From IMG/VR virus record IMGVR_UViG_3300017773_000043, positions 1 through 37,159 of that record: 37,159 nucleotides of DNA, one strand, 5' to 3'. The stretch is from a virus. Position 1 is the first letter of the stretch; each line of letters opens with the position of its first letter. The position numbers and the translations under genes are program-made. The notes beneath the pieces were generated by a model. That model saw only the letters and a list, made by a program, of their open reading frames with translations, ran no database searches and was not told the origin of the DNA. Below are positions 2,227 to 14,507 of this stretch, in pieces.

Positions 2227-3887
2227 TAATATAAGTTTTCTATTTCTTTTAAGTCTTTATCTAGCTCTATAGATGGATTTACAGGCGACGTTAAATTAGC
2301 TGAGCCTTTTGTTTTTCTATCGTAAAACATTGTGTCGTGTTTTTGCCACTGGTCTACTGCTCCTACACCTTTATATCTTTCGTAAAAAGGTTTGTAAGTA
2401 TAAGCACTGTGGTTTAACCATTGAGGCGTATCTGCTCCTGATGCGTCTTTTCCTATCAACGGATTATAATACATAGTAACAATAGACTGAAATGTTTCGT
2501 CATTCATATTGTAACGTTGTAACCCGTTTCTAGGAATAGCTACTTGTGTTTGGTCATCTGCTCCACCAACCAAAGTATCAACAAAACGTATTAAGTTGTC
2601 TTTCAATACTTTAGGGTCTTGTGTTGAACCAAAACCAACTATATTCAAATGATGTGCTAAGTCTTTATCAGAAAGCGTTCTACCTGTTTGACCGTTTGCT
2701 GCCGCTGCCATATAAGCTAATTGTAAAAAATTTGCTCTAGTTGCTACGTTAGCGTAAGCAGCTTGACCCATAACTTGTCTAAGGTTTGTTCCTGTTGCGT
2801 TTTCAAAATTAGCCGTAGCTCGTTCTATTTGTTCTTCGTCTCCTGATTTAAGAGCTATATATAATTCTCTAGCGTTATCTCCTCTACCTATAAACATACT
2901 ACCACCTGCGTCATCAGCACTGAAATATGTTAGAGGGTCACGATTACCGTTTAATGAAGCTATTTGGTCAAAGTTAGTTAATGCACTATTACCCATATTC
3001 ATTAAAGAAGAAACAACAGTTGTCGGTGCTTTACTAGGGTCTTTAATAGCTTCGTCTAACATCTCTATTGTGTTATTAGCAACGTTTAATGTTCCCATAA
3101 CCGCACTGTCTTTAGCAGTTATTTCTGCATTAGTTTTTACAAGCTCGGTATATTGAGGGTCTTTGTAAATATCAATACCTGTTGAACCACTAGTAGCTAA
3201 TTTAGCAGGGTCTATCCAATTTTGACCCGCTACTACAAAACCAAAATCATTAGCGTCTTTATTATCAGGGTCTTTTATATAAGTTTGACCTGTTTCTTTA
3301 TCAAAATATCCTGGACGTATATCTACAACACCTGTTTTAGCTTTATTAGTATCTTGTAAGTTTAAGAATTGGAAGGCATCAGGTGATACTTGTTTTTGTA
3401 TAAAACTTGCTCGTCTTCCTTCTCTTGTTAATCTATCTTGTTCTTTAGCTCTGTTTAAAGCTACAGTGTTTTTTGCAAAATCACTCGCACCTCTACCTAA
3501 TTGACTAGCAGCTACAATATCAAAAATATCATCAAAACCAAAACCGTCTTTTTCTTCTTGTGGTCCAAATAAAGTATAAGCGTCGGCTTGTGCACTTTGT
3601 AATTTAGTTGGGTCTTCTACATCAGCACCTATACTTTTTAAATAAGCCTCTCTGTTCATAGGTGCTTTTTGTTTACCACTAAACATTGAACCAATACCGT
3701 CAAAAAGTAACGGTAATAACGGTGCTACTTTTTCTAATGTGTCTGGCTCAGGTGCACGTCTAACAGGTCCACGAGCCGTTGGAAACCTCATTTGAGTCGG
3801 GGCTAACTTAACAGGTGTTATACCTGCAATGCCGTTTTTACCTCCGAACGTTGGGAAAGGATTGTACTTAGCCATATAAACCTCCAA
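2226..3887 (-). CDS. Hypothetical virion protein, ejection-protein candidate
   Basis: This 553-residue protein starts inside the 3' end of the gene upstream (20 nt overlap) and ends on the start of the next gene, so the three are probably translated as one block. The N-terminus is Pro/Gly-rich and basic (residues 1-50); the rest is soluble, mixed alpha-helical, without transmembrane segments or recognisable catalytic motifs. An alternative start is the Met at residue 5 (MAKYNPF), a more typical phage N-terminus. The context between a Gln-rich structural protein and a 742+ residue protein suggests a virion component delivered with the DNA. I do not recognise the family. Confidence 0.75.
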   Translation of the reverse strand: MEVYMAKYNPFPTFGGKNGIAGITPVKLAPTQMRFPTARGPVRRAPEPDTLEKVAPLLPLLFDGIGSMFSGKQKAPMNREAYLKSIGADVEDPTKLQSAQADAYTLFGPQEEKDGFGFDDIFDIVAASQLGRGASDFAKNTVALNRAKEQDRLTREGRRASFIQKQVSPDAFQFLNLQDTNKAKTGVVDIRPGYFDKETGQTYIKDPDNKDANDFGFVVAGQNWIDPAKLATSGSTGIDIYKDPQYTELVKTNAEITAKDSAVMGTLNVANNTIEMLDEAIKDPSKAPTTVVSSLMNMGNSALTNFDQIASLNGNRDPLTYFSADDAGGSMFIGRGDNARELYIALKSGDEEQIERATANFENATGTNLRQVMGQAAYANVATRANFLQLAYMAAAANGQTGRTLSDKDLAHHLNIVGFGSTQDPKVLKDNLIRFVDTLVGGADDQTQVAIPRNGLQRYNMNDETFQSIVTMYYNPLIGKDASGADTPQWLNHSAYTYKPFYERYKGVGAVDQWQKHDTMFYDRKTKGSANLTSPVNPSIELDKDLKEIENLY

Positions 3888-5898
3888 TACCTGCTTTTAA
3901 TTGAGGTTGAACATCTAAGGTTGCTATCATAGGTTGGTTTTGAGAACTTCCAGGACCTTTCATAGGTTGAACAAAGTTTTGATATTTTCCTTGATTCATA
4001 TTTTGAAGACTTCCAGGACCTGTATTTTGATATGTACCTAAGTTAGGGTTTGTTGGAAAACTAAAACTTCCTATTCCGCCACCCATAACTCCTGATGGGG
4101 TATAGTTATAATTAGTAGTCGGTGCACCACCTGCATAACCGAAACCACCCGCCATAGGTCCAAGAGAAGCTGTAAGTGCTCCAACGTTTTGTAATGTTTG
4201 CATAGGTAAGTTGTATTGACCTACGAAGTTTTGGTAATTTAAGTCCATTAGCGACTGTTGTCTACCTCTACCTAGTCCGCCCATACCCATCATTGATTGA
4301 ATATCTTGTTGTTGTAGTTGTGGTAATAAACTCGCCATTCCACCGTATTGACTACCGAAACCACTTAACGCACCTGCTGTTTGTTGACCTAGTCCTGCTA
4401 ATCCTTGACCGCCTTGTAGTCCCATACCGAACTGTTGTTGACCTAATGCACCCAGTTGTGAACCTTGTTGTAACTGACTAGCGAATCTTTGTTGGTCTAT
4501 ATTAGATAGTTGTTGTCCTTGTTGTAGTTGGTTAGCGAATTGTTGTTGGTCTAGCGTATTAAGTGCTTGACCTCTATTCATAGCGTTTTGTATAGCTTGT
4601 AGTTCAGAAGCATTTAACGCTTGACCTGTTGCTAATTTAGCTTGTGCTTGTTGTGCTTCTAAACTTCCTAGTTGTGAAGCTCTAGCTAATTGGTTTTGAG
4701 CTTCTGTTGTAGAAAGGTCGCCAAACTGTCTGCCTCTTGCTAATGCTGCTTGAGATTCTTGACCTGCTAATCCTGCTTCTTGACCTGCTAGATTACCTAA
4801 CTGCGAAGCTCTGCCTAATGCAGTTTGTGCTTCTTGACCTGCGAAACCGCCTAGCTGTCCTGCTATATTAGATTGTAATCCTGCAAGACCTGCTTGTCTT
4901 TGTTGTTGTGCTTCGAATGCTTGTTGTGCTCTATTAGCCGCGTCAGAATAACCACCACTACGAATAGCCCCTACTTGTTCTGCTGCTCCTCTTGCAACAT
5001 TTTCTGCTAGTTCGTCACGTCTTAATCTTGACCTTGAACCGCCGAAAGCTCCTCCGCTAACAGCTTCGTCTCTAAGACCCATATCACTTTTAGCTAATCC
5101 TTCTCTAACGTCTTTTAATGTTTGTTGTACTACATCTTCTTCAAAAGGATTATAAAAACTTGCTATACCTCTGGGGTCAAAACTACCTGCAGAACCATAA
5201 CCTGTTTGTTCTGCTCTACCTAATGTTCCTGTAGCACCTCTAAAATCTGGTCTTGCTCCTAAAGTTTCTGCTCTAGCACCTGCAAAACCAGCCCTAGCAC
5301 CACCGAACTGTGGTCTAGCTGCTGCTGTTTCCATTCTAGCTAAATCTAAATTAGGTGCTCCTGCTCTTGTTAATGCTTGTGCTTCACTAAACGAAGGCAC
5401 TCCACCTTGTAGATAACCTCTGCCTGATTGACCGAACCTTGCTCCTTCTATAAGACCTCTGCCTGATTGTCTTTGTTGTGCTCCTGCTAATAAATCTCTA
5501 CCTGCTGTGTCAAACGTAGCTCCTCTAGTAAGGTCAGCACCTAAACCTGCTAATCCTCTACCAGCACCTAGTCCTGCGGTTATTTCATCTTGTCCTCTAG
5601 CTAATGCTCCTCTAGATATCCCTGCCGCTTCGTCTAGTAAATCAGCTTGTGCACCTAAGTACGGTCTGTAACTACCAATCGCTGAATCAGCAAGTTCCAT
5701 ACCATACAGTTCTCTAGGGTCAAAATCAGCAACCCTTTGCCCTGTATAAGTAAACGGACTTGAATCAGCTTCGCCTAAGTTTTGGAACTGTTGTCTTAAA
5801 AACTGTTGTGCAAAAGGAAATATATCCTGTTGTAAAAACTGCCCTATATAGGGGGCGGGGGCTTGACTGGAATATTCTTGTTCTTCTCTAGACGCCAT
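3868..5898 (-). CDS. Gln/Ala/Gly-rich repetitive virion protein
   Basis: The 676-residue protein is dominated by Ala, Gly, Gln, Leu and Arg. Residues about 330-520 form an irregular series of short helical repeats built around LAGQEAQ, ALGRASQLG and QQFANQLQQGQQL, which should make a long amphipathic rod or coiled coil. Residues about 110-230 hold a second Gly/Ala/Arg-rich series, and the C-terminal 130 residues are Gly/Asn/Pro-rich and probably flexible. The N-terminus (PAPYIGQFLQQDIFPF) is of a kind I associate with structural proteins of marine podoviruses. It overlaps the genes on both sides. A role as internal virion or tail protein is inferred; no enzymatic motif is visible. Confidence 0.75.
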   Translation of the reverse strand: MASREEQEYSSQAPAPYIGQFLQQDIFPFAQQFLRQQFQNLGEADSSPFTYTGQRVADFDPRELYGMELADSAIGSYRPYLGAQADLLDEAAGISRGALARGQDEITAGLGAGRGLAGLGADLTRGATFDTAGRDLLAGAQQRQSGRGLIEGARFGQSGRGYLQGGVPSFSEAQALTRAGAPNLDLARMETAAARPQFGGARAGFAGARAETLGARPDFRGATGTLGRAEQTGYGSAGSFDPRGIASFYNPFEEDVVQQTLKDVREGLAKSDMGLRDEAVSGGAFGGSRSRLRRDELAENVARGAAEQVGAIRSGGYSDAANRAQQAFEAQQQRQAGLAGLQSNIAGQLGGFAGQEAQTALGRASQLGNLAGQEAGLAGQESQAALARGRQFGDLSTTEAQNQLARASQLGSLEAQQAQAKLATGQALNASELQAIQNAMNRGQALNTLDQQQFANQLQQGQQLSNIDQQRFASQLQQGSQLGALGQQQFGMGLQGGQGLAGLGQQTAGALSGFGSQYGGMASLLPQLQQQDIQSMMGMGGLGRGRQQSLMDLNYQNFVGQYNLPMQTLQNVGALTASLGPMAGGFGYAGGAPTTNYNYTPSGVMGGGIGSFSFPTNPNLGTYQNTGPGSLQNMNQGKYQNFVQPMKGPGSSQNQPMIATLDVQPQLKAGIGGLYG

Positions 5899-6878: not shown

Positions 6879-7433
6879 CTATATGCTCCTTATTTGGTCG
6901 ATAAGTTTATCTATCTGTTTTGTATCGACTGGTAAAAATTCTTTTTCAAAGTCTTTAGCAATACATTCTTCTTCCACTTCTGCTAAAGTTAATTTATCTG
7001 TACAATGCACAGTCACCCAAACACATTCTTCGTGTATATATAAAAGTCTTTTTGTTCCTGAATCAGTTATTCCGTGATACGGAGCCTCTATAGTTTCTGT
7101 TCCTTTTTCACTATATACAGAACACTTGCCTTTCATTACAAAAAACGGGTGGTTTTGGTTATGTATTTTAGTTGCTATAACCATTCCTTTAGGCATAGTA
7201 ATAGCTCTTATGTATTGACCGTCTGCAAAACTATGTTTAACATAGCCTTCTTCATATCCTTGATAAGCGGGTAAGTCTTTATCTTGATTAATTTCTGTTG
7301 CGTAGTCTGCTAAAGCTTTTTCAAATTGTTTTACTTTATTTTGAAAATTAAGTTTATTTTCTTTATGTTCTAGGAACTCACAAACATCTGTGTATGTAAA
7401 ATTATCTGTTGTCTTTAATTCAGTTAAAGCCAT
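6879..7433 (-). CDS. Cupin-like small protein
   Basis: This 184-residue protein has a helical N-terminal third and then a beta-rich stretch (about residues 68-150) with a cupin-type pattern: a start strand (YIRAITMPKG), a metal-site-like segment with histidines (KIHNQNHPFFVMKG), a glycine turn, and a closing segment (APYHGITDSGTKR, then IHEECVWVTVH). Cupin-fold proteins of about this size are common among phage late genes, where the role is unknown. The start is backed by an AAGGAG site in the upstream gene and by a TAATG overlap. Metal binding is inferred from the His pattern only. Confidence 0.72.
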   Translation of the reverse strand: MALTELKTTDNFTYTDVCEFLEHKENKLNFQNKVKQFEKALADYATEINQDKDLPAYQGYEEGYVKHSFADGQYIRAITMPKGMVIATKIHNQNHPFFVMKGKCSVYSEKGTETIEAPYHGITDSGTKRLLYIHEECVWVTVHCTDKLTLAEVEEECIAKDFEKEFLPVDTKQIDKLIDQIRSI

Positions 7434-7540
7434 TAGAAACGGCTCCTTGATTTTATTTTCTTTCCTTTAGACGTATATATGTAGAAGTCCGAACGGCTCC
7501 CTTTTTTCTTCAGATATGTCTTCTTATCTACTCCAGTCAT
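7433..7540 (-). CDS. Small basic hypothetical protein (35 aa)
   Basis: An ATG at 7540 preceded by GGAG at good spacing opens a 35-codon frame whose TAA overlaps the ATG of the cupin gene (TAATG), the same linkage used by many gene pairs here. The peptide starts MTGVDKKTYLKKKG and contains DFYIYTSKGKK; it is strongly basic with an aromatic cluster. The ribosome site and the exact stop-start overlap are the evidence that it is real. It also fills most of what would otherwise be a gap between the cyclase and cupin genes. Function unknown; translational coupling to the cupin gene is likely. Confidence 0.6.
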   Translation of the reverse strand: MTGVDKKTYLKKKGSRSDFYIYTSKGKKIKSRSRF

Positions 7541-7578
7541 TGTTTCTCCAGCGTGTTGCCACGTATTTGCGAGTTAAA

Positions 7579-7627
7579 GCTCACCCCGTAAGCTGCAGCA
7601 CAATGGCTGATATACTGATTATATATC
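7579..7627 (-). terminator. Possible weak terminator after the cyclase gene
   Basis: Two inverted repeats follow the cyclase stop on the minus strand. GATATA/TATATC with a 7-nt loop (7609-7627) overlaps the stop itself. GCTTAC/GTGAGC with a 3-nt loop and one G-T pair (7579-7593) is followed by TTTAA. The T-run is short, so this is at best an attenuating terminator separating the accessory cassette from the virion genes downstream. Confidence 0.3.
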
Positions 7628-9362
7628 AAAAAGTGTATATTTTTAAAGGTTTTTGTTTACCTTTTACTTTTATTGGTTTTAATGCTTTTAACTGTACCCC
7701 ACAATATTTTTCAGTTTCTTCGCCTATTAGTATGTCTACACCTGCTTCTTTAGTTCCAGACTCTAGCCTAGCTGCTGTGTTTACAGCGTCTCCTATAGCT
7801 GAATAATCAAACCTAGTATCGCTACCCATGTTGCCAATAACTGCTTCTCCTGTATTAACTCCTACTCCAATAGCTACGCCGATATCTGCTTTTATAATAT
7901 TATCTTGTATTTCTTTAGCACAAGTAACAGCTATGTGTTCGTGGTGTTGTAAATCCATTGGTGCATTAAATATAGCCATCATTGCATCACCGATATATTT
8001 ATCTACCATACCGCCATGTTTTTGTACTGCGTCTGACTGTATAGTTAAGGCTTTGTTCATAATCTTAGTTACTTCTTCTGGTGGTAATGTTTCTGAAAGT
8101 GCTGTAAAACCTCTGACGTCTGTGAATAAAAATGTACAACGTCTTTTTTCTCCACCTAGTTTTAACAAACTTGGGTCTTTTTGTAAACGTTTAACTTGTC
8201 GTGGGTCTAAGTAATGCTCAAATTGTTTCTTGATTTGTTGTCTTAGTTTATACTGTTCTCTAAAACGTAGGTAGAAAGCTATAGCTCCAGTAATAAATTG
8301 TGAAACTAAAGACCACGTAACATCTATTAAAACACCTGTAGATATCGTGTAATAACCGTATAAGCCCGTTAAACCCATCGTAAGTAAAGCTAGACTTATA
8401 CCCCAAGTTATCCCTAAATAGCTTATAAACGCCCATACGAGCCCTACAGACGCTATGAAAATAAGTAGTTCTAAAGCTAGGGCGTAATCTGGTATAAAAG
8501 GACTATCTTGAATTAAAAGAGACTCTGCTAGTGCTGCTTGTATTTTATGTGGTTCTAGTAAACCAACTGGTGTAGCAACCTGTGGCATAACGCCGTTAGC
8601 GGTTACACCTACAAACACAAACTTACCGTTTACATCCATTTCTTGTAAATTTGTTTGTGGTGTATCTACCCAACTAACCCATTTACGACCAAGACTATCT
8701 GTTTTGACAGGCGGTATACCTCGTATAGCTATTTCTTGTATACCGTTTTCATTTGTAGTTATGATGTAGCTTTTTACACCGAATAATGCTTTATATATTT
8801 GTGTGCCGAAAGAAGCTACCCAACCATCAGGTGTTCGTAATAGTAAAGGAACTCGTCTAACTAGTTGGTCTACTTCGGTGGGAGCACTGGCAATTCCTTG
8901 TAGTATATCTTCGTAGGCGTAGAAATTTTCCTTGACTCCCTGTGTTAGTATACCACCGATATCTTCACCCTTTATTACAGTTCCTGTAGTTTTAGGGTAT
9001 TTATTATTAGGTGTTTCAAACATAGCAATAACACTAGGAGCATAACCTAAAGACCTAGCAAAATCTTCATCACCTATAAGTCTATCAGGCTGTGGAAAAC
9101 TAATTACCCAACCAACACCAAGAGCTCCTTTGCCTAATATTTTTAATTGTATGTCCGCTAATCTTTTTCTAGGCAGTGGGTAACCGCCTTCACGTTCTAC
9201 ATCTTCTTCTGTAATATTAAGAATAACAAAATTACCAGAAGGTTCTTGTTGTTTTATAAATGTATCAAATACTTTAAGTTTTAATATTTCTGTAGGTGTT
9301 GATTGAAATACTAAAGGCAGTGCTAGAATTAATAGTAAGGGTATTATAAGAAGTTTTTTCAT
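7626..9362 (-). CDS. CHASE2-sensor class III adenylate/guanylate cyclase, membrane-bound
   Basis: The 578-residue protein has the standard CHASE2-cyclase layout. An N-terminal membrane helix (3-19) leads into an extracytoplasmic CHASE2 sensor (about 25-285), three membrane helices (about 293-313, 317-338, 346-366), a short linker helix, and a C-terminal class III cyclase domain (about 405-578). The catalytic set appears complete: metal-binding D415 (FTDVRGFT) and D459 (YIGDAMMAIF), purine-selecting K455 with S521 (DYSAIGD), and transition-state N528 and R532 (VNTAARLE). Lys with Ser/Thr favours ATP, so cAMP is the likelier product. The start overlaps the FecR stop as ATGA, so the two are coupled, and FecR is the probable periplasmic partner. 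A cyclase of this kind is very unusual in a phage. Confidence 0.93.
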   Translation of the reverse strand: MKKLLIIPLLLILALPLVFQSTPTEILKLKVFDTFIKQQEPSGNFVILNITEEDVEREGGYPLPRKRLADIQLKILGKGALGVGWVISFPQPDRLIGDEDFARSLGYAPSVIAMFETPNNKYPKTTGTVIKGEDIGGILTQGVKENFYAYEDILQGIASAPTEVDQLVRRVPLLLRTPDGWVASFGTQIYKALFGVKSYIITTNENGIQEIAIRGIPPVKTDSLGRKWVSWVDTPQTNLQEMDVNGKFVFVGVTANGVMPQVATPVGLLEPHKIQAALAESLLIQDSPFIPDYALALELLIFIASVGLVWAFISYLGITWGISLALLTMGLTGLYGYYTISTGVLIDVTWSLVSQFITGAIAFYLRFREQYKLRQQIKKQFEHYLDPRQVKRLQKDPSLLKLGGEKRRCTFLFTDVRGFTALSETLPPEEVTKIMNKALTIQSDAVQKHGGMVDKYIGDAMMAIFNAPMDLQHHEHIAVTCAKEIQDNIIKADIGVAIGVGVNTGEAVIGNMGSDTRFDYSAIGDAVNTAARLESGTKEAGVDILIGEETEKYCGVQLKALKPIKVKGKQKPLKIYTF

Positions 9363-10480
9363 CCATCGTTTTGCGTAATAGTTATAACACTATCGCTTCC
9401 TCCGTTCACTTTGATTATATTAGATACTCCGTCTTGTATCAAAATTACGGTATACGCATCACTACCGTTCAAATCCACTCTTACGCTTTCGTTTACTTGT
9501 CTTCGTAAACTAATTACATTTCCTGTTATTAATGTTGTTATTTGAGTATCTGGGTCTTTGCCTAATGATGTTCCTGTTATTTGTGTACTTGTAGCTTGTG
9601 CTAGTACATCTTCTTCCTCTGCTATAGCTAGTGCATCTAGAACATTTAATAAATCTTCTAAATAATTTACGTCAAGATAATTTATATCTAGTTCTGTAAA
9701 CTCTAGTTCATCTTCTGCTAAGTAATCTTCTGCTAAGTAATCAATATCTAAGTCATTAAAATCTAAAACACTATCTGTTTGAACAGTTGTGGTTTCTTCT
9801 TCTATACGTTGTTCTTCTTTAGGCGGTGTAACTATAAGCATATTGTCAATAACATCTAAGGTTAAATCTAAGATAACAGGTTTTGTTGGTGCAGACTCGA
9901 ATACACTAACAGTAGTTGCTTCGTACGGTTTATTAAGGACAACCGTACCCATAGCTGTTACCACCTCTATTTCACCACTAGAAAGACCTAGTGCGTCAGG
10001 GAGCAGTATAATCAAACTACGTCCTAGCTCATCTACTGTAGCAGTAAAATCTGTGCCTCTAATTGCAATATTAGCTGTGGGTGTTTTAAGTTGAATGTTT
10101 TGTTTATCTATACGGTTTAGATTACCAGTAATAAATCTAGCCGTACCCAAACCAAAGGTGATAGCCATTTTAGATTTACTAGGGTCTGGGTCATAAATAT
10201 ATTCATCTATAAGTAATTGCGAGTGTTCAGTTAATTTTACTACAGAATCATCAAGAAAGGTGATAGCCATTCTGCCATCTTTAGTAATAGCTTCGTCATT
10301 ACTTTGTATAGCGAATTTTAGGTTAGCGTCGTATGACTTGTCTCTTACTATTTGTGCTGAACCGTTTAGTTCAGATATGTCTCCAATATCAACAGCTTGT
10401 GCTAGTGCCTTGGTCGTTTTGAATGACACACACAGTAGAAGAAGCAGTGCCACCGACTGAAATAATTTTAAGCCAGTCAT
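9359..10480 (-). CDS. Secreted FecR-domain protein with curlin-like C-terminus
   Basis: A Sec signal peptide spans residues 1-27 (leucine core, ALA cleavage site). A FecR domain follows at about 30-150, recognisable by DGRMAITFLDDSVVKL, IDEYIYDP and TPTANIAIRGTDF. Residues about 220-290 are very acidic, with short repeats of the DYLAED/DINYL type. The last 40 residues (VILIQDGVSNIIKVNGG, then ITITQNDG) follow the curlin pattern of alternating hydrophobics with Q-x-G and N. Its start lies 92 nt inside the curlin-like gene and its stop overlaps the cyclase start. Canonical FecR is a membrane sigma-factor regulator; this secreted form without a transmembrane segment is the type found beside CHASE2 cyclases in bacteria, so it probably relays a periplasmic signal to the sensor. 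Confidence 0.88.
   Translation of the reverse strand: MTGLKLFQSVALLLLLCVSFKTTKALAQAVDIGDISELNGSAQIVRDKSYDANLKFAIQSNDEAITKDGRMAITFLDDSVVKLTEHSQLLIDEYIYDPDPSKSKMAITFGLGTARFITGNLNRIDKQNIQLKTPTANIAIRGTDFTATVDELGRSLIILLPDALGLSSGEIEVVTAMGTVVLNKPYEATTVSVFESAPTKPVILDLTLDVIDNMLIVTPPKEEQRIEEETTTVQTDSVLDFNDLDIDYLAEDYLAEDELEFTELDINYLDVNYLEDLLNVLDALAIAEEEDVLAQATSTQITGTSLGKDPDTQITTLITGNVISLRRQVNESVRVDLNGSDAYTVILIQDGVSNIIKVNGGSDSVITITQNDG
9711..9740 (-). repeat. Exact 15-bp tandem duplication in the FecR gene
   Basis: Two adjacent identical 15-bp units encode the duplicated pentapeptide of the acidic linker (LAEDYLAED). The repeat is in frame, so slippage would change the linker length without breaking the gene. 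Confidence 0.85.
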
Positions 10481-11120
10481 TATCTTGCGTACTTAGTTGT
10501 TGAATATTAAATGTTCTTGAACCTCCAGTATGGTCTAAATAAAAATAACCACCTGCGGATGCATTTACGCCTGTGCCTGTATAAGTAACGGTGTTATCTG
10601 AACCGTCTATATCCATATAGTTTGTAGCGTTATCGATGTTAATGTTTGATGTAACAGTATTATTAGACCCCTGAATAATCCAATCTAAGTCAAGAGAAGC
10701 TGCTATTGCTGTAGTTCCTTGATTTAAAGTAAAAGTATTACCGCTACCTGTAACTTGTACGTTTTGGTTAGAGCTATCAGAACTGTAGGTGTCGGTAGGG
10801 TCTACCTGTATTGTGAAGCTGTTAGTCCCACCTGTGAATTCATAAAAACCAGTAAAACTGTCAGCGAATATATCACCGAGAAACTTATTAGTTGCACCAA
10901 TCATGTTGATGTCAAGAGTCATACTTGTTCCGTCTAAATCAAAAGGATTTACGCTACCTGCGGTTGAGTTTAGTCCACCAATAATATTAGATATACCGAG
11001 TTGTTCTAAATCTATGTTTGCTCCAGTTCCAGACTGGTCTACATATATCTCATTATCCGCCGCGTACAGAGGAAATAAAGCAAGACATAACATAAACTGT
11101 ATGCACTTCTTCATCATCAT
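10389..11120 (-). CDS. Secreted curlin-like (CsgA/CsgB-type) protein
   Basis: A signal peptide at residues 1-20 ends in LYA. The mature protein opens with IYVDQSGTGANIDLEQLG followed by SN, which fits the curlin consensus (h-x-h-x-Q-x-G-x-x-N-x-h-x-h-x-Q-x-G-x-x-N). Looser repeats follow, rich in Asn, Thr, Gly and Ser (NTFTLNQG, NTVTSNINID, NTVTYTGTG, TFNIQQ), predicting a beta-helical amyloid-like stack. It ends with two cysteines around VIQNDQG. Two further Met codons follow the first, so the exact start is open by two residues. Lying directly after csgG, it is the natural cargo of the CsgG pore. It is longer and less regular than CsgA (about 150 aa), so it could instead be a minor subunit or signal ligand. 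Confidence 0.8.
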   Translation of the reverse strand: MMMKKCIQFMLCLALFPLYAADNEIYVDQSGTGANIDLEQLGISNIIGGLNSTAGSVNPFDLDGTSMTLDINMIGATNKFLGDIFADSFTGFYEFTGGTNSFTIQVDPTDTYSSDSSNQNVQVTGSGNTFTLNQGTTAIAASLDLDWIIQGSNNTVTSNINIDNATNYMDIDGSDNTVTYTGTGVNASAGGYFYLDHTGGSRTFNIQQLSTQDNDWLKIISVGGTASSTVCVIQNDQGTSTSC

Positions 11121-11124
11121 AATC

Positions 11125-11961
11125 TCATTCTACCTCGTTTTCTTTATTTTGTAAAACCCAGTAACCTTTGTCGTAACCAAGTTTTACTATTTCTAGTACA
11201 GCACCTTCTATAGCTTTCATTAAAGCAATAGTAGAAGATTCATTTCTAGCATTACCTAATTCTATTTCTACTAGTTCTGTTCCAGCTTCTATAAACCTAA
11301 AGACATCTTCTGATTTACCGTAACTAAATATAGTTTTTTGACTTAAAACTTCTAATAAGACTTCGCCTGTAGCTACAGAAACCATACGTAAACTAACTGT
11401 TATATTGTCCTCTCTGTATTGAATACTGTTTCCAATACCTAAGTATCTAGCTCCCGCACCTCCAGACTCTAGGTTAGCTTCGTAACTAATAACAGCTCCT
11501 TCTATTAAAATACCTGCAAACAACAAGGGAGCTAATTGTTTTTTCTTTTCTTCATCACTAGCAAACTGTTCTCTAGCTGAGCGTATAAGCTGTCTTTCTT
11601 TTGTAAGGTTATCTAAACCTACTCTTTCTACAACTCTAAAAAAATCACCGTTACCTGCGTGTTTTAATGCACGAATAAGTAATGCGTTAGGTTGTTGTGT
11701 TATAGCTGTACTGAATAAAGCAAATTCACTATTGCTTTTACGCTGACCTGTTTGGTCTGTAAAAGCTGTAGGATATACAGCAACAACAGGACTTACTTTA
11801 GGAATAGCTACATTACGTAAATCGACAGATTGTAAATCTTGTATAGTTACAACGTTATGTTTTTGAAACCTATGTTCGTACGTATCTTCAACTTGGTCTA
11901 ATATAGAACAACTAGAAAGTAAAAGTACCAATAGGAATTGTAATCTCCGTAATTGTCCCAT
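11125..11961 (-). CDS. csgG: CsgG, curli-type outer-membrane secretion channel lipoprotein
   Basis: The 278 residues match the length of E. coli CsgG (277). A lipoprotein signal ends at C18 (LLLSSC). The core follows CsgG closely: ERVGLDNLTKERQLIRSARE at about 112-131, GAVISYEANLESGGAGARYL at 155-174, QYREDNITVSLR and TGEVL, KTIFSY and VFRFIE, and the end GYWVLQN. In E. coli CsgG forms a nine-fold pore in the outer membrane that lets unfolded curlin subunits through. The start lies 50 nt inside csgF; it must be used because the shared segment encodes the signal peptide. The spacing from GAGG to ATG is short, so coupling to csgF translation is likely. Confidence 0.95.
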   Translation of the reverse strand: MGQLRRLQFLLVLLLSSCSILDQVEDTYEHRFQKHNVVTIQDLQSVDLRNVAIPKVSPVVAVYPTAFTDQTGQRKSNSEFALFSTAITQQPNALLIRALKHAGNGDFFRVVERVGLDNLTKERQLIRSAREQFASDEEKKKQLAPLLFAGILIEGAVISYEANLESGGAGARYLGIGNSIQYREDNITVSLRMVSVATGEVLLEVLSQKTIFSYGKSEDVFRFIEAGTELVEIELGNARNESSTIALMKAIEGAVLEIVKLGYDKGYWVLQNKENEVE

Positions 11962-12406
11962 CCGCCTCAGTAATCTTTAGTGTTAGTGTTACACCATCAC
12001 TTGTATATTCGATAGTGTTGCCTTCAAGAGTTATTGTACCTGAATCAGACGGTGTTTCACCAAAGAGGTTATTTACAAGCTGTCTAGAAAGTTCTGCGTA
12101 AACTCTCGATTCAAGATTCCTCATGAATCTAGCTAATGTACTATTTTCTTTTTCTCTTTCTATTTCTTCTTGTAATGCTTTTATTTCTTCCTTTATTGTT
12201 AGTTTACGAGAAAACTCTTGGTTTTCTATGGTTAGGTAATGTGAGGATGTACCAACGCCATTAAAACTTGGAGATTTGAATTTATGAACTATTTGGTCTG
12301 CTTTAATATTTTCTACAAAAATACCAATAATTAAAATTATTCCAATAACCATAATAGTCCAAAGTATTCTATCTTTTTCTTGTTCGGATGTTTTTCGTTT
12401 TCCCAT
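11912..12406 (-). CDS. csgF: CsgF-like curli assembly factor with N-terminal membrane helix
   Basis: After a basic 13-residue leader and a strong hydrophobic helix (14-30), residues 37-68 follow the CsgF pore-binding region (HKFKSPSFNG, HYLTIENQ), matching the FRNPNFGG-type start of mature CsgF. The C-terminal 45 residues (TIEYTSDGVTLTLKITEADG, ending TFTF) match CsgF's beta-rich end. Between them lies an insertion with a charged coiled coil (about 70-88). CsgF binds CsgG and couples the pore to curlin nucleation at the cell surface. AGGAGG precedes the ATG at 8 nt. This is the first gene of the accessory cassette. Whether the hydrophobic helix is cleaved as a signal or kept as an anchor cannot be read from sequence. 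Confidence 0.88.
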   Translation of the reverse strand: MGKRKTSEQEKDRILWTIMVIGIILIIGIFVENIKADQIVHKFKSPSFNGVGTSSHYLTIENQEFSRKLTIKEEIKALQEEIEREKENSTLARFMRNLESRVYAELSRQLVNNLFGETPSDSGTITLEGNTIEYTSDGVTLTLKITEADGTITEITIPIGTFTF

Positions 12407-12417
12407 TAAAGTTCCTC

Positions 12418-12603
12418 CTAATGCAAAATTCTTTCTTTTTCTTCAGTGCCGTCTATACCCACAATTACTTTAGCTTCTGCTACAATAACTACACCATAAG
12501 CTTCTGCTTCTAAGTCTGCTTCTTCAAAACTGTTTGCACATATAAAAGGACCGTCGTATATGGTATCTCCTACTCTAAACTCTGTTATATATACTTTTTT
12601 CAT
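12418..12603 (-). CDS. Small hypothetical protein (61 aa)
   Basis: A 61-residue acidic soluble protein starting MKKVYITEFRVGDTIYDGPF with an alpha/beta pattern and a conserved-looking FEEADLEAEAYGV helix. Its ATG overlaps the previous stop (TAATG) and it ends 11 nt before the csgF start, within the csgF ribosome-site region. The predicted fold (strand, helix, strand) is reminiscent of small phage proteins of unknown function. I do not recognise it. Confidence 0.65.
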   Translation of the reverse strand: MKKVYITEFRVGDTIYDGPFICANSFEEADLEAEAYGVVIVAEAKVIVGIDGTEEKERILH

Positions 12604-12953
12604 TAATCTTTTCTTTGGTCTTCTCTATCCGCTTTAGCTATTTTATCTTGGTTTATTATATGAGGAACTCCTAGTATAGTTTTAATCATAGTATCTTGTC
12701 TTATGATTTCATTATCAAGACTTCTAATTCTGTCTATCAAGGCTACTAAAATACCGTGTTGTGAATCAAGTTTACCGCCTAGTCTTTCCTCTAACTGAGT
12801 TATTTGACCAGCAACTTTTTCGTCAACTACGTCTAACTTACTTTCCATACCGTCTACAATACGCATTATAAGTTTATATATAAACCAACCTAATGCACCT
12901 GCTGCTGCTATTGGAAAACCAACTTCTTGTATTAAAGTAACAGCAGAATCCAT
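12603..12953 (-). CDS. Membrane-anchored coiled-coil protein, holin candidate
   Basis: The 116 residues start with one hydrophobic helix (about 9-31, GFPIAAAGALGWFIYKLIM) followed by a long charged helix with heptads (about 35-95) and a basic tail. Small one-helix proteins with cytoplasmic coiled coils near a lysozyme are frequent holin or antiholin candidates, and the T4-type lysozyme here has no signal peptide and so needs a holin. Start and stop each overlap the neighbours by one base. A holin role is inferred from topology and position; 17310-17492 and 17492-17647 are competing candidates. Confidence 0.65.
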   Translation of the reverse strand: MDSAVTLIQEVGFPIAAAGALGWFIYKLIMRIVDGMESKLDVVDEKVAGQITQLEERLGGKLDSQHGILVALIDRIRSLDNEIIRQDTMIKTILGVPHIINQDKIAKADREDQRKD

Positions 12954-13336
12954 TAATAATCACCCCAGACTTTAGTTTTAGTGCCGCCGTGATACTCTAC
13001 GGCATGACCTTCTTTTATAAGCATTTCACAAATATCTTTACCTTTTTCAGTATAAGGTATTCCTAATATACGACCATACTTGCCTTTACCTAATGATTTT
13101 ACTTTTATTTTTCCTACACAAAGTTCTTTTAGTCTTTCTTTAGCTGCAAGACCTAATACTTTTTCTGCTTTATCTCGTGTTCTTGATTCAGGTGTATCTA
13201 TGCCTGCAAGTCTGACACGTTGTTTATGTAACTTAACATCAAAACCTAAATCTAAACAACAATCAAAAGTATCACCGTCTACAATACGTTCTAGTGTTGC
13301 ATTATATACAAAGGCATCAGGTGCTTTTTTAGCCAT
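12953..13336 (-). CDS. Staphylococcal-nuclease-like (SNase/thermonuclease) enzyme
   Basis: The 127 residues form one SNase domain. The motifs line up with the S. aureus enzyme: VDGDTF (D22, calcium site), RVRLAGIDTPES (R42, D47, E50, matching R35, D40, E43 by spacing) and KYGRILG (R89, matching R87). All catalytic positions are therefore present, so calcium-dependent cleavage of DNA or RNA at the 5'-phosphate side is expected. No signal peptide is present, so it would act in the cytoplasm, perhaps degrading host DNA for nucleotide supply or aiding lysis. It lies one base before the 98-aa basic protein's stop in a tightly packed operon. Confidence 0.93.
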   Translation of the reverse strand: MAKKAPDAFVYNATLERIVDGDTFDCCLDLGFDVKLHKQRVRLAGIDTPESRTRDKAEKVLGLAAKERLKELCVGKIKVKSLGKGKYGRILGIPYTEKGKDICEMLIKEGHAVEYHGGTKTKVWGDY

Positions 13337-13633
13337 TTAACATTTCCACCTTTTACGTGCTTGACGTAATCTTGAGTTAGGGTTTTTTGCTGCTTTAGGA
13401 AACTTTTTCATTTGTCCTGCACTTCTAGCACAGTAAGACTTTCTTCTTTTTGCGGCTTTGCTTCCTTTTTTAACCTTACCTGTTACAGCTCCTTTTAATT
13501 TAGAACCAGGATTTTTTCTTTTATATGCAGCAATACCTTTTTTAGTCATGCCCGCACCTTTTTTAGTAGGTCTGTAATTAGCTCCTTTGCCTTTAGTGGT
13601 ACGTTTTATTGACTTTTCTTTTTTCCTAGGCAT
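13337..13633 (-). CDS. Highly basic small protein (98 aa)
   Basis: Roughly a third of the residues are Lys or Arg. The centre reads KKGAGMTKKGIAAYKRKNPG, followed by SKLKGAVTGKVKKGSK and a Cys-containing tail (SYCARSAGQ). I associate this pattern with a phage family of basic proteins (possibly DUF6321, from memory). Strong positive charge suggests binding to DNA or RNA. Its ATG overlaps the stop of the 65-aa basic protein upstream (TAATG). A histone-like or genome-condensing role is inference only. Confidence 0.75.
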   Translation of the reverse strand: MPRKKEKSIKRTTKGKGANYRPTKKGAGMTKKGIAAYKRKNPGSKLKGAVTGKVKKGSKAAKRRKSYCARSAGQMKKFPKAAKNPNSRLRQARKRWKC

Positions 13634-13830
13634 TATTTCTTTTTCCTAGTAACTTTTTTCTTAGTTGTTTTTCTAGAACGCTTTATAGCTTTATCACTGA
13701 CCGTTCCTTTTCCTGGTCTACTTGTTCCAGCTTTTTTCCTTTTGTTTATGTTATACCATAAACCTTTCTTAGCACGTCTACCGTCTTTAGTAGTGTGGTA
13801 CTTGCTACTTGATTTTTTCTTTGCTGCCAT
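13633..13830 (-). CDS. Highly basic small protein (65 aa)
   Basis: The 65 residues are dominated by Lys and Arg, with low-complexity ends (KKKSSSK at the start, KKKVTRKKK at the end) around a short tyrosine/tryptophan segment (GLWYNINKRKK). GAGG sits 7 nt before the ATG. It is the second of three basic proteins encoded within 1.3 kb. Non-specific nucleic-acid binding is the most likely property; the specific role is unknown. Confidence 0.7.
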   Translation of the reverse strand: MAAKKKSSSKYHTTKDGRRAKKGLWYNINKRKKAGTSRPGKGTVSDKAIKRSRKTTKKKVTRKKK

Positions 13831-13832
13831 AA

Positions 13833-14507
13833 TTAATCCTCGTATAAATTATTAAAAGTTATAGAAGGGTCTAAATAACTTTCATGCCCTTCTGCAGAAT
13901 GCACGTGTTGTGATGGAACAAAATCTGGAGCACCTTCACCAGTTACCCATAAAGCAGGACTTGTAGCCCTTACTCTGTTATTTGGTAAAGCAACTAAGTT
14001 ACCTTTCCATTCACAATCTTCTGTTATATATAATACATGAGACTGTTTGTGTTGTGCAGGACAGTCTGCAATAGCATTATTTGTATAATCTACTGTAAAC
14101 ATATACTTACCAGTATAAAACTTTCCGTCAATTTTGCAAAGCCATGGACTAGAACTAACCCTATCCATAACAATTACTGAGTGTTCCCTAGATTCACAAT
14201 CCCAAGGCTGTGCTAAATGGTCTTCCATAGGAACCGCCCATTCCTCTACAGGTATGTCAGCTATTAGACCTTGAATCGGCATACGTGCCCACATGGCACC
14301 GCCGTGTATATTACCTTCGTCCCAATCGTCGTATTCAGTTTCACAACCTGTAAAAACAACTTGAAAACTTAACGACCTATCTGGTATTGTGTTTACTGCG
14401 AAAGCAATAGCGTGAAGAAACTCGCCGTGATATCTAGAATGATTTGCGGTAAATTCTCTACGTACCCAGCATTTAAAATGTGGGATATTGCTTATAAGAT
14501 GAGGCAC
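13833..14507 (-). CDS. Conserved hypothetical phage protein (224 aa, GTG start)
   Basis: The frame is closed by a TAA immediately before codon 1, so translation must begin at the GTG at 14507 or later, and the opening (PHLISNIPHFKCWVRREFT) resembles N-termini I know from uncultured marine phages. The protein is rich in His, Trp, Tyr and Cys (cysteines at several positions including FKCW, TGCE, WDCE, DCPAQH) and mixed alpha/beta. The abundance of His and Cys could support metal binding, but no known motif is recognisable. It is soluble without a signal peptide. Its neighbours are the basic proteins and the lysozyme. Confidence 0.72.
   Translation of the reverse strand: MPHLISNIPHFKCWVRREFTANHSRYHGEFLHAIAFAVNTIPDRSLSFQVVFTGCETEYDDWDEGNIHGGAMWARMPIQGLIADIPVEEWAVPMEDHLAQPWDCESREHSVIVMDRVSSSPWLCKIDGKFYTGKYMFTVDYTNNAIADCPAQHKQSHVLYITEDCEWKGNLVALPNNRVRATSPALWVTGEGAPDFVPSQHVHSAEGHESYLDPSITFNNLYED

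Follow-up and report, generated by a model that had tools for sequence, protein, structure and literature searches.

A pelagiphage curli-type secretion unit with a FecR protein and a CHASE2 cyclase: linkage among viral contigs and a possible role in fibre export and sensing

Genes for curli secretion have been reported in phages by several groups. CsgF and CsgG were described in pelagimyophages by Zaragoza-Solas et al. 2020 (PMC7029224) and in Melnitz by Buchholz et al. 2022 (PMC9004378), where a role in lysis was proposed, and csgGF is among the genes of sediment temperate viruses (PMC9636769). Wittmers et al. 2022 (PMC9599517) describe the whole set, including FecR and the cyclase, as present in both pelagimyophages and HTVC023P-type podophages, report its expression in metatranscriptomes, state that one or two histidine kinases always precede it and propose an alphaproteobacterial origin. 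The unit discussed here lies in IMGVR_UViG_3300017773_000043, a 37-kb viral contig that was analysed over its whole length of 37,159 nucleotides (the window). It has the makeup given there for the pelagiphage type VIII secretion system (T8SS), with CsgF, CsgG, a curlin repeat protein, FecR and the optional cyclase in conserved order. An earlier note on this DNA had taken the complete set to be unreported, which the paper of Wittmers et al. contradicts. What is new here is the near-obligatory linkage of the genes, a carrier of 337 kb, the re-identification of the first gene of the unit (h), the curlin-type tail of the FecR protein, the finding of the two modules separately in bacteria, and a survey of cyclases and receptors in likely hosts.

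The linkage of the unit in IMG/VR is almost obligatory, whichever of CsgG, the cyclase or h serves as the anchor. Scans for CsgG relatives gave 486 with one pattern set and at least 598 with another. Profiles built from phage proteins were used to score gene content in the best 80 loci per scan, which are not a random sample. Among the CsgG-anchored loci with sufficient flank, CsgF was found in 224/224, the curlin-like protein in 204/206, FecR in 152/152 and the cyclase in 46/46. When the cyclase was the anchor, with at least 3 kb upstream, FecR was present in 29/29 loci and CsgG in 28/29, and 65 of the 66 h-anchored loci with 2.5 kb downstream contained CsgG. The usual order is h-F-G-c-R-A in podophage-type loci (h, CsgF, CsgG, curlin-like, FecR, cyclase) and h-h-F-G-c-R-c-A in myophage-type loci. 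Distant contigs sometimes have h or the cyclase on the opposite strand, yet within several kilobases. Protein distances correlate among the unit genes across phages (r=0.86-0.94), a pattern that shared phage descent would also produce, there being no core-gene control. The recurrence in viral contigs and the phage clade that the earlier note had looked for as support were both seen, the unit being present in hundreds of contigs. In a CsgG tree of 93 rows, whose long branches limit deeper readings, the 11 sampled bacterial sequences are split from all the phage sequences by a branch with 100/99 support, and the podophage-type rows form one group with three rows from contigs of metagenome-assembled genomes (MAGs), with 100/100 support. 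Every part of the unit has bacterial homologues, and a bacterial segment could in principle have been joined to a phage contig in assembly, the outcome that the earlier note had named as damaging to its proposal. The probability of this is negligible given the same gene order in hundreds of independent viral contigs and in two isolated phage groups, and the separation of the bacterial CsgG sequences in the tree. An assembly chimera was rejected.

It is proposed, with about even confidence, that this six-gene phage unit exports a fibre and operates a checkpoint from the cell surface to the cytoplasm. By homology, CsgG and CsgF would form the export pore in the outer membrane. The curlin-like protein would be the main substrate of the pore and would form an amyloid-type fibre on the infected cell, while the FecR protein, with its repeat read from the sequence, may be a minor subunit of the fibre, or its nucleator or cap. 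The neighbouring FecR and CHASE2 genes of bacteria suggest that the cyclase, through its CHASE2 domain, may sense the FecR domain in the periplasm. The cyclase would signal the state of export or of the fibre into the cytoplasm as a cyclic nucleotide, which from the catalytic residues is most likely cyclic AMP (cAMP), and h may be a dedicated inner-membrane partner, as its linkage suggests. The likely benefit would be an altered surface of the infected cell, so that other phages are excluded or cells and progeny are held together. The proposal is supported by the linkage, the correlated distances, the curlin tail of FecR, the conserved cyclase residues, the bacterial FecR/CHASE2 pairs and purifying selection.

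The FecR protein has a signal peptide at its start, a FecR domain at residues 66-151, an acidic linker and the C-terminus YTVILIQDGVSNIIKVNGGSDSVITITQ, where a QxGxxN motif and a pair of hxhxQ strands with a spacing of 21 residues are seen. Curlin repeats have a period of about 21 residues. All relatives tested (30/30) match the FecR domain, and the protein has no other Pfam domain. A C-terminal hxhxQ strand was found in 169/170 distinct FecR C-termini versus 65/1809 control frames, the latter including non-genes. Two such strands 21-22 residues apart are present in 95/96 podophage-type, 56/67 myophage-type and 17/33 distant FecR proteins; the spacing is exactly 21 in 95/96 of the podophage type, and the QxGxxN motif was found in that type only (76/96). 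No Pfam curlin match was obtained for any member examined, and the assignment of the tail is based on motif and period. Since a curlin-type repeat ends nearly all of the distinct relatives, the sequences point to a minor fibre subunit and not to an iron regulator. A role as an iron-citrate regulator (FecR with FecI and FecA) was considered and rejected: the protein starts with a signal peptide and has no anti-sigma part, and no sigma factor or receptor lies beside the gene.

Both the CHASE2 region and the class III catalytic region of the cyclase are complete, and its catalytic residues are intact (D415, K455, D459, N528 and R532, with S521 at the specificity position). In 214/214 cyclases the catalytic arginine is kept, as are the adenine lysine and both metal aspartates. 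The transition-state Asn is present in all podophage-type cyclases; it is replaced by Ser in 8/25 of one myophage set, including Melnitz, and in 14/32 distant cyclases. The cyclases of the Melnitz type (locus L003, 7917-9968) and these 14 distant ones may be weak or inactive. The second specificity residue, S521 in the window, is Ser or Thr in all podophage-type cyclases, as in class IIIb adenylate cyclases. The product of the enzyme would most likely be cAMP, as judged from these residues.

That CHASE2 cyclases are neighbours of FecR proteins in bacteria, as the earlier note had stated, is borne out. In Campylobacterota, CHASE2 class III cyclases cluster with FecR proteins (PMC9239204), and among 190 alphaproteobacterial genomes at least 33 FecR/CHASE2 pairs within 6 kb were found, in 30 genomes, versus about 2 expected. 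About half of the listed alphaproteobacterial pairs are on opposite strands. CsgF was detected in 6-7 of 385 alphaproteobacterial genomes, and six bacterial curli loci searched with the phage profiles over about 9 kb on each side contained no FecR or cyclase gene. Because the FecR/CHASE2 pair and the curli loci are found separately in bacteria, the phage unit looks like two bacterial modules that have been joined. The scan of bacterial genome contigs yielded few true bacterial CsgG loci. Unit-bearing contigs also occur in MAGs named Maricaulis, Neomarinimicrobiota, Flavobacteriaceae, Rhodobacteraceae and Pelagibacter (L093-L098, L102) and were treated as phage contigs. Phage contigs binned into bacterial MAGs could mislead searches for a bacterial origin of the unit.

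The five genes that the earlier note had placed at 7626-12406 were recovered as intact open frames on the minus strand, in the transcription order CsgF, CsgG, curlin-like, FecR and CHASE2-cyclase (Table 1). Their identities hold by Pfam and PHROG, and the Pfam scores for CsgF, CsgG, FecR, CHASE2 and Guanylate_cyc all pass the family cut-offs. The description as a five-gene cassette stands for the genes that it lists but not for their number, as the true start of the unit lies upstream, at the gene of 116 residues at 12953-12603, which makes six. The gene overlaps that had been claimed are present and are kept in the relatives: the CsgF/CsgG overlap is 50 nucleotides in 51/51 complete sets and the curlin/FecR overlap is 71-92 nucleotides in 51/51, where the exact offsets depend on start codons picked by similarity to the window. 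All the unit genes are under purifying selection. The median pairwise ratio of nonsynonymous to synonymous substitution rates (dN/dS) is 0.07 in h, with a 90th percentile of 0.55 that probably comes from the mixing of two paralogues, and lies at 0.10-0.20 in the other five genes.

Table 1. Positions in the window of the unit genes, of their domains and of a small upstream frame
Feature	Coordinates	Strand	Basis
h, first gene of unit, 116 aa	12603..12953	-	one N-terminal membrane helix and coiled coil; phrog_18771
61-aa open frame between h and CsgF	12418..12603	-	tblastn, matched in some of the relatives
CsgF homologue, secreted accessory protein of CsgG pore	11912..12406	-	PF10614 E=8.4e-16; phrog_35372 E=2e-44
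CsgG homologue, outer-membrane lipoprotein pore	11125..11961	-	PF03783 E=3.6e-47; lipobox LSSC
Curlin-like secreted protein, 243 aa	10389..11120	-	homology (E=5e-15) to the Melnitz protein annotated as curlin-associated repeat
Secreted FecR-domain protein, 373 aa	9359..10480	-	PF04773 E=9.8e-10
C-terminal curlin-type repeat of FecR protein	9362..9454	-	QxGxxN and a pair of hxhxQ strands with a spacing of 21
CHASE2 adenylate cyclase, 578 aa	7626..9362	-	PF05226 E=5.4e-24; PF00211 E=1.5e-19
Periplasmic CHASE2 sensor domain of cyclase	8454..9329	-	PF05226, residues 12-303
Class III cyclase domain	7638..8144	-	PF00211 (Guanylate_cyc), residues 407-575

A profile from three phage CsgG sequences matches the E. 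coli CsgG structures (E=1.5e-64), and the lipoprotein signal of the pore can be read in the sequence. The curlin-like protein is 29% identical to the Melnitz protein annotated as curlin-associated repeat, has the N-terminal motif NEIYVDQSG...LEQLGISN and is all-beta in its structure model, with a mean predicted local distance difference test (pLDDT) score of 79.6. Pfam Curlin_rpt matches, all weak, were found in 4/31 of its relatives.

Several results weigh against the fibre-export proposal. For the curlin-like protein of the window, Pfam gives no significant curlin match, and a Foldseek search of its model against the Protein Data Bank gave no match below E=0.001, the best being at E=0.13 and the CsgA fibril at E=2.4. 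The AlphaFold model of the FecR protein is unusable (pLDDT 33), so its repeat and domain are known from sequence alone. No cell clumping was observed in Melnitz infections (PMC9004378). A cAMP signal would also lack an obvious receptor. A cyclic-nucleotide-binding (cNMP-binding) domain is present in only 7/117 SAR11-type genomes, other receptor families not having been searched, and in 0/31 phage records, the complete HTVC008M and Melnitz among them. The SAR11-type sample comprises 117 genomes from the order to which a MAG titled 'Candidatus Pelagibacter' belongs. No class III cyclase was found in these genomes (0/117; other cyclase classes were not searched), and CsgG is present in 2/117, one being a phage-type contig. 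The seven cNMP-binding frames (L496-L499) have 372-870 residues and are longer than CRP; the one of 372 residues is at a contig end. This makes action of cAMP via a CRP-like regulator less likely. The view of the earlier note that the phage answers by making a cyclic nucleotide loses strength as regards effects on SAR11-type hosts. The scarcity of known receptors in likely hosts raises the sharp question of what the product of the cyclase acts on.

CsgE, the gate of the E. coli pore, was also not found in 16 records, the E. coli control being positive; in E. coli CsgE boosts export yet is dispensable, according to PMC7029224. The lack of a CsgE homologue would suit a suggestion made in PMC7029224 and PMC9599517, namely that an ungated CsgG lets the infected cell take up larger nutrients or cofactors, and the hosts are oligotrophic. 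Such an uptake pore is improbable, as it leaves the conserved curlin-like protein, FecR-curlin, cyclase and CsgF unexplained.

The h-position genes in the window, HTVC008M, Melnitz and aligned relatives encode 91-116 residues with an N-terminal hydrophobic stretch, of borderline hydropathy (19-residue mean 1.59), and a coiled coil. The charges flanking the helix weakly suggest that the coiled coil is in the cytoplasm. All the h relatives examined (27/27) match PHROG 18771, of unknown function, and 9/27 match a holin PHROG family, with a best E=1.3e-5; a search of the 27 for kinase domains (HisKA, HATPase) gave 0/27 matches. Among 50,697 phage records, h homologues were found in HTVC008M and Melnitz strains only, all of them carriers of the unit. 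From the agreement in position and in copy number (one or two), we infer that h corresponds to the genes named histidine kinase in PMC9599517. Identity as a histidine kinase was rejected on the size of the protein and the missing HisKA and HATPase matches, and the published label is read as needing correction, to a small holin-like protein with one helix and a coiled coil. One h-anchored locus (L390, 916-1263) is the sole one with 10 kb downstream but no CsgG; there h adjoins an SNase gene and phage packaging genes. The frame of 61 residues next to h gave tblastn matches at E<=1e-4 in 37 loci, the window's own stretch counted among them.

The size and layout of h, the holin PHROG matches, the position of h next to CsgF and the lack of a CsgE gate would also fit a lysis device, an extension of the proposal in PMC9004378. 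The CsgG pore, together with h and the cyclase, would depolarise or open the envelope and in this way time or trigger the end of infection, and the curlin would be incidental. This is unlikely, though less so than the uptake pore. HTVC023P and HTVC027P gave no match to the unit genes, and HTVC027P lyses its host (PMC12753301). In addition, the curlin-like protein (204/206), CsgF (224/224) and FecR (152/152) are retained, and a plain lysis pore needs none of them.

The contig belongs to the HTVC023P pelagiphage type and is not an assembly chimera. Its portal protein is nearest to those of HTVC027P, 023Pt_psg01 and HTVC023P (50-55% identity over 76-83% of its length), and in the region spanning the large terminase and the tail genes the window is largely collinear with these phages. 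There is no overlap between the termini, so the contig probably covers only part of the genome, whose full length would be about 60 kb. Since HTVC023P and HTVC027P infect Pelagibacter HTCC1062, the host is presumed to be Pelagibacter. When HTVC023P, HTVC027P and 023Pt_psg01 were searched, no match to h, CsgG or other unit genes was obtained, and the curli/cyclase unit is on this account read as an accessory insertion in a genome of this type. The earlier note was correct that phage structural genes lie on both sides on the same strand; these neighbours include a short tail fibre gene and the genes for the portal, large terminase and capsid. This setting could mean that the virion has fibres made of the curlin-like and FecR proteins. 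Such a role is very improbable, as the signal peptides, the lipoprotein signal and the outer-membrane pore indicate an envelope system, and in HTVC008M and Melnitz the unit is at the edge of the structural genes beside replication genes, not among structural genes. The protein at 13833-14507 of the window is called ferredoxin by PHROG and the counterpart region of HTVC023P and HTVC027P is annotated PurM; one of the names is probably wrong. An Rfam scan of the window gave no match, the glutamine riboswitch reported in Melnitz not being seen there, and a tRNA search of the window found none. OR851715, an unannotated Salmonella phage record of 1.5 kb, gave a match at 43% identity.

The unit extends well beyond the podophages and pelagimyophages of the 2022 report. 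A contig of 337 kb (IMGVR_UViG_3300023174_005338) carries the whole unit at 7201-14175, with two h genes, alongside a T4-type capsid protein (E=1e-97) and a terminase. When 30 distant contigs were searched with Terminase_6N and the T4 capsid, a match was found in this contig only; the others are viral by IMG/VR classification. A 92-kb contig classed as viral (L291) has a full-length HSP70 (DnaK) gene at 2402-4318, about 4 kb from the unit. A broader and more tentative form of the fibre-export proposal, which we consider doubtful at present, is that the unit is a phage-specific machine for amyloid secretion and sensing, in which the FecR-curlin protein couples the state of the fibre to a cyclic nucleotide acting on a receptor of unknown type. 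It would act in hosts that lack both class III cyclases and known receptors, and it would be old in phages, with carriers among podophages and T4-type pelagiphages and in at least one jumbo phage. Taken together, the linkage, the curlin tail of FecR and the dedicated small protein h mean that what was only vaguely a 'curli auxiliary gene' can be seen as a defined machine whose contacts can be tested.

The closest described system is the pelagiphage type VIII secretion module (PMC9599517; HTVC008M; Melnitz, PMC9004378; PMC7029224), which has the same genes, order and accessory status, also in HTVC023P-type podophages. The window member has one h and no second curlin gene, and a non-kinase upstream gene and a curlin repeat in FecR were not found in the accessible text of the T8SS papers. 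Small phage holins (PHROG 4898 and 1296) are like h in size, in the single membrane helix and in the charged coiled-coil tail; the similarity is weak, however, and, apart from L390 as a possible exception, h occurs only together with the other curli-unit genes. E. coli curli (csgBAC/csgDEFG) share CsgG, CsgF and a secreted protein of curlin-like sequence with the phage unit. The phage unit differs in that it has no CsgE match, no canonical CsgA or CsgB was seen, and the FecR protein, the CHASE2 cyclase and h are additional. With the bacterial FecR/CHASE2 pairs it has in common a FecR-domain protein beside a CHASE2 protein, which in Campylobacterota is a CHASE2 class III cyclase (PMC9239204), but in the phage version this pair is joined to curli export.

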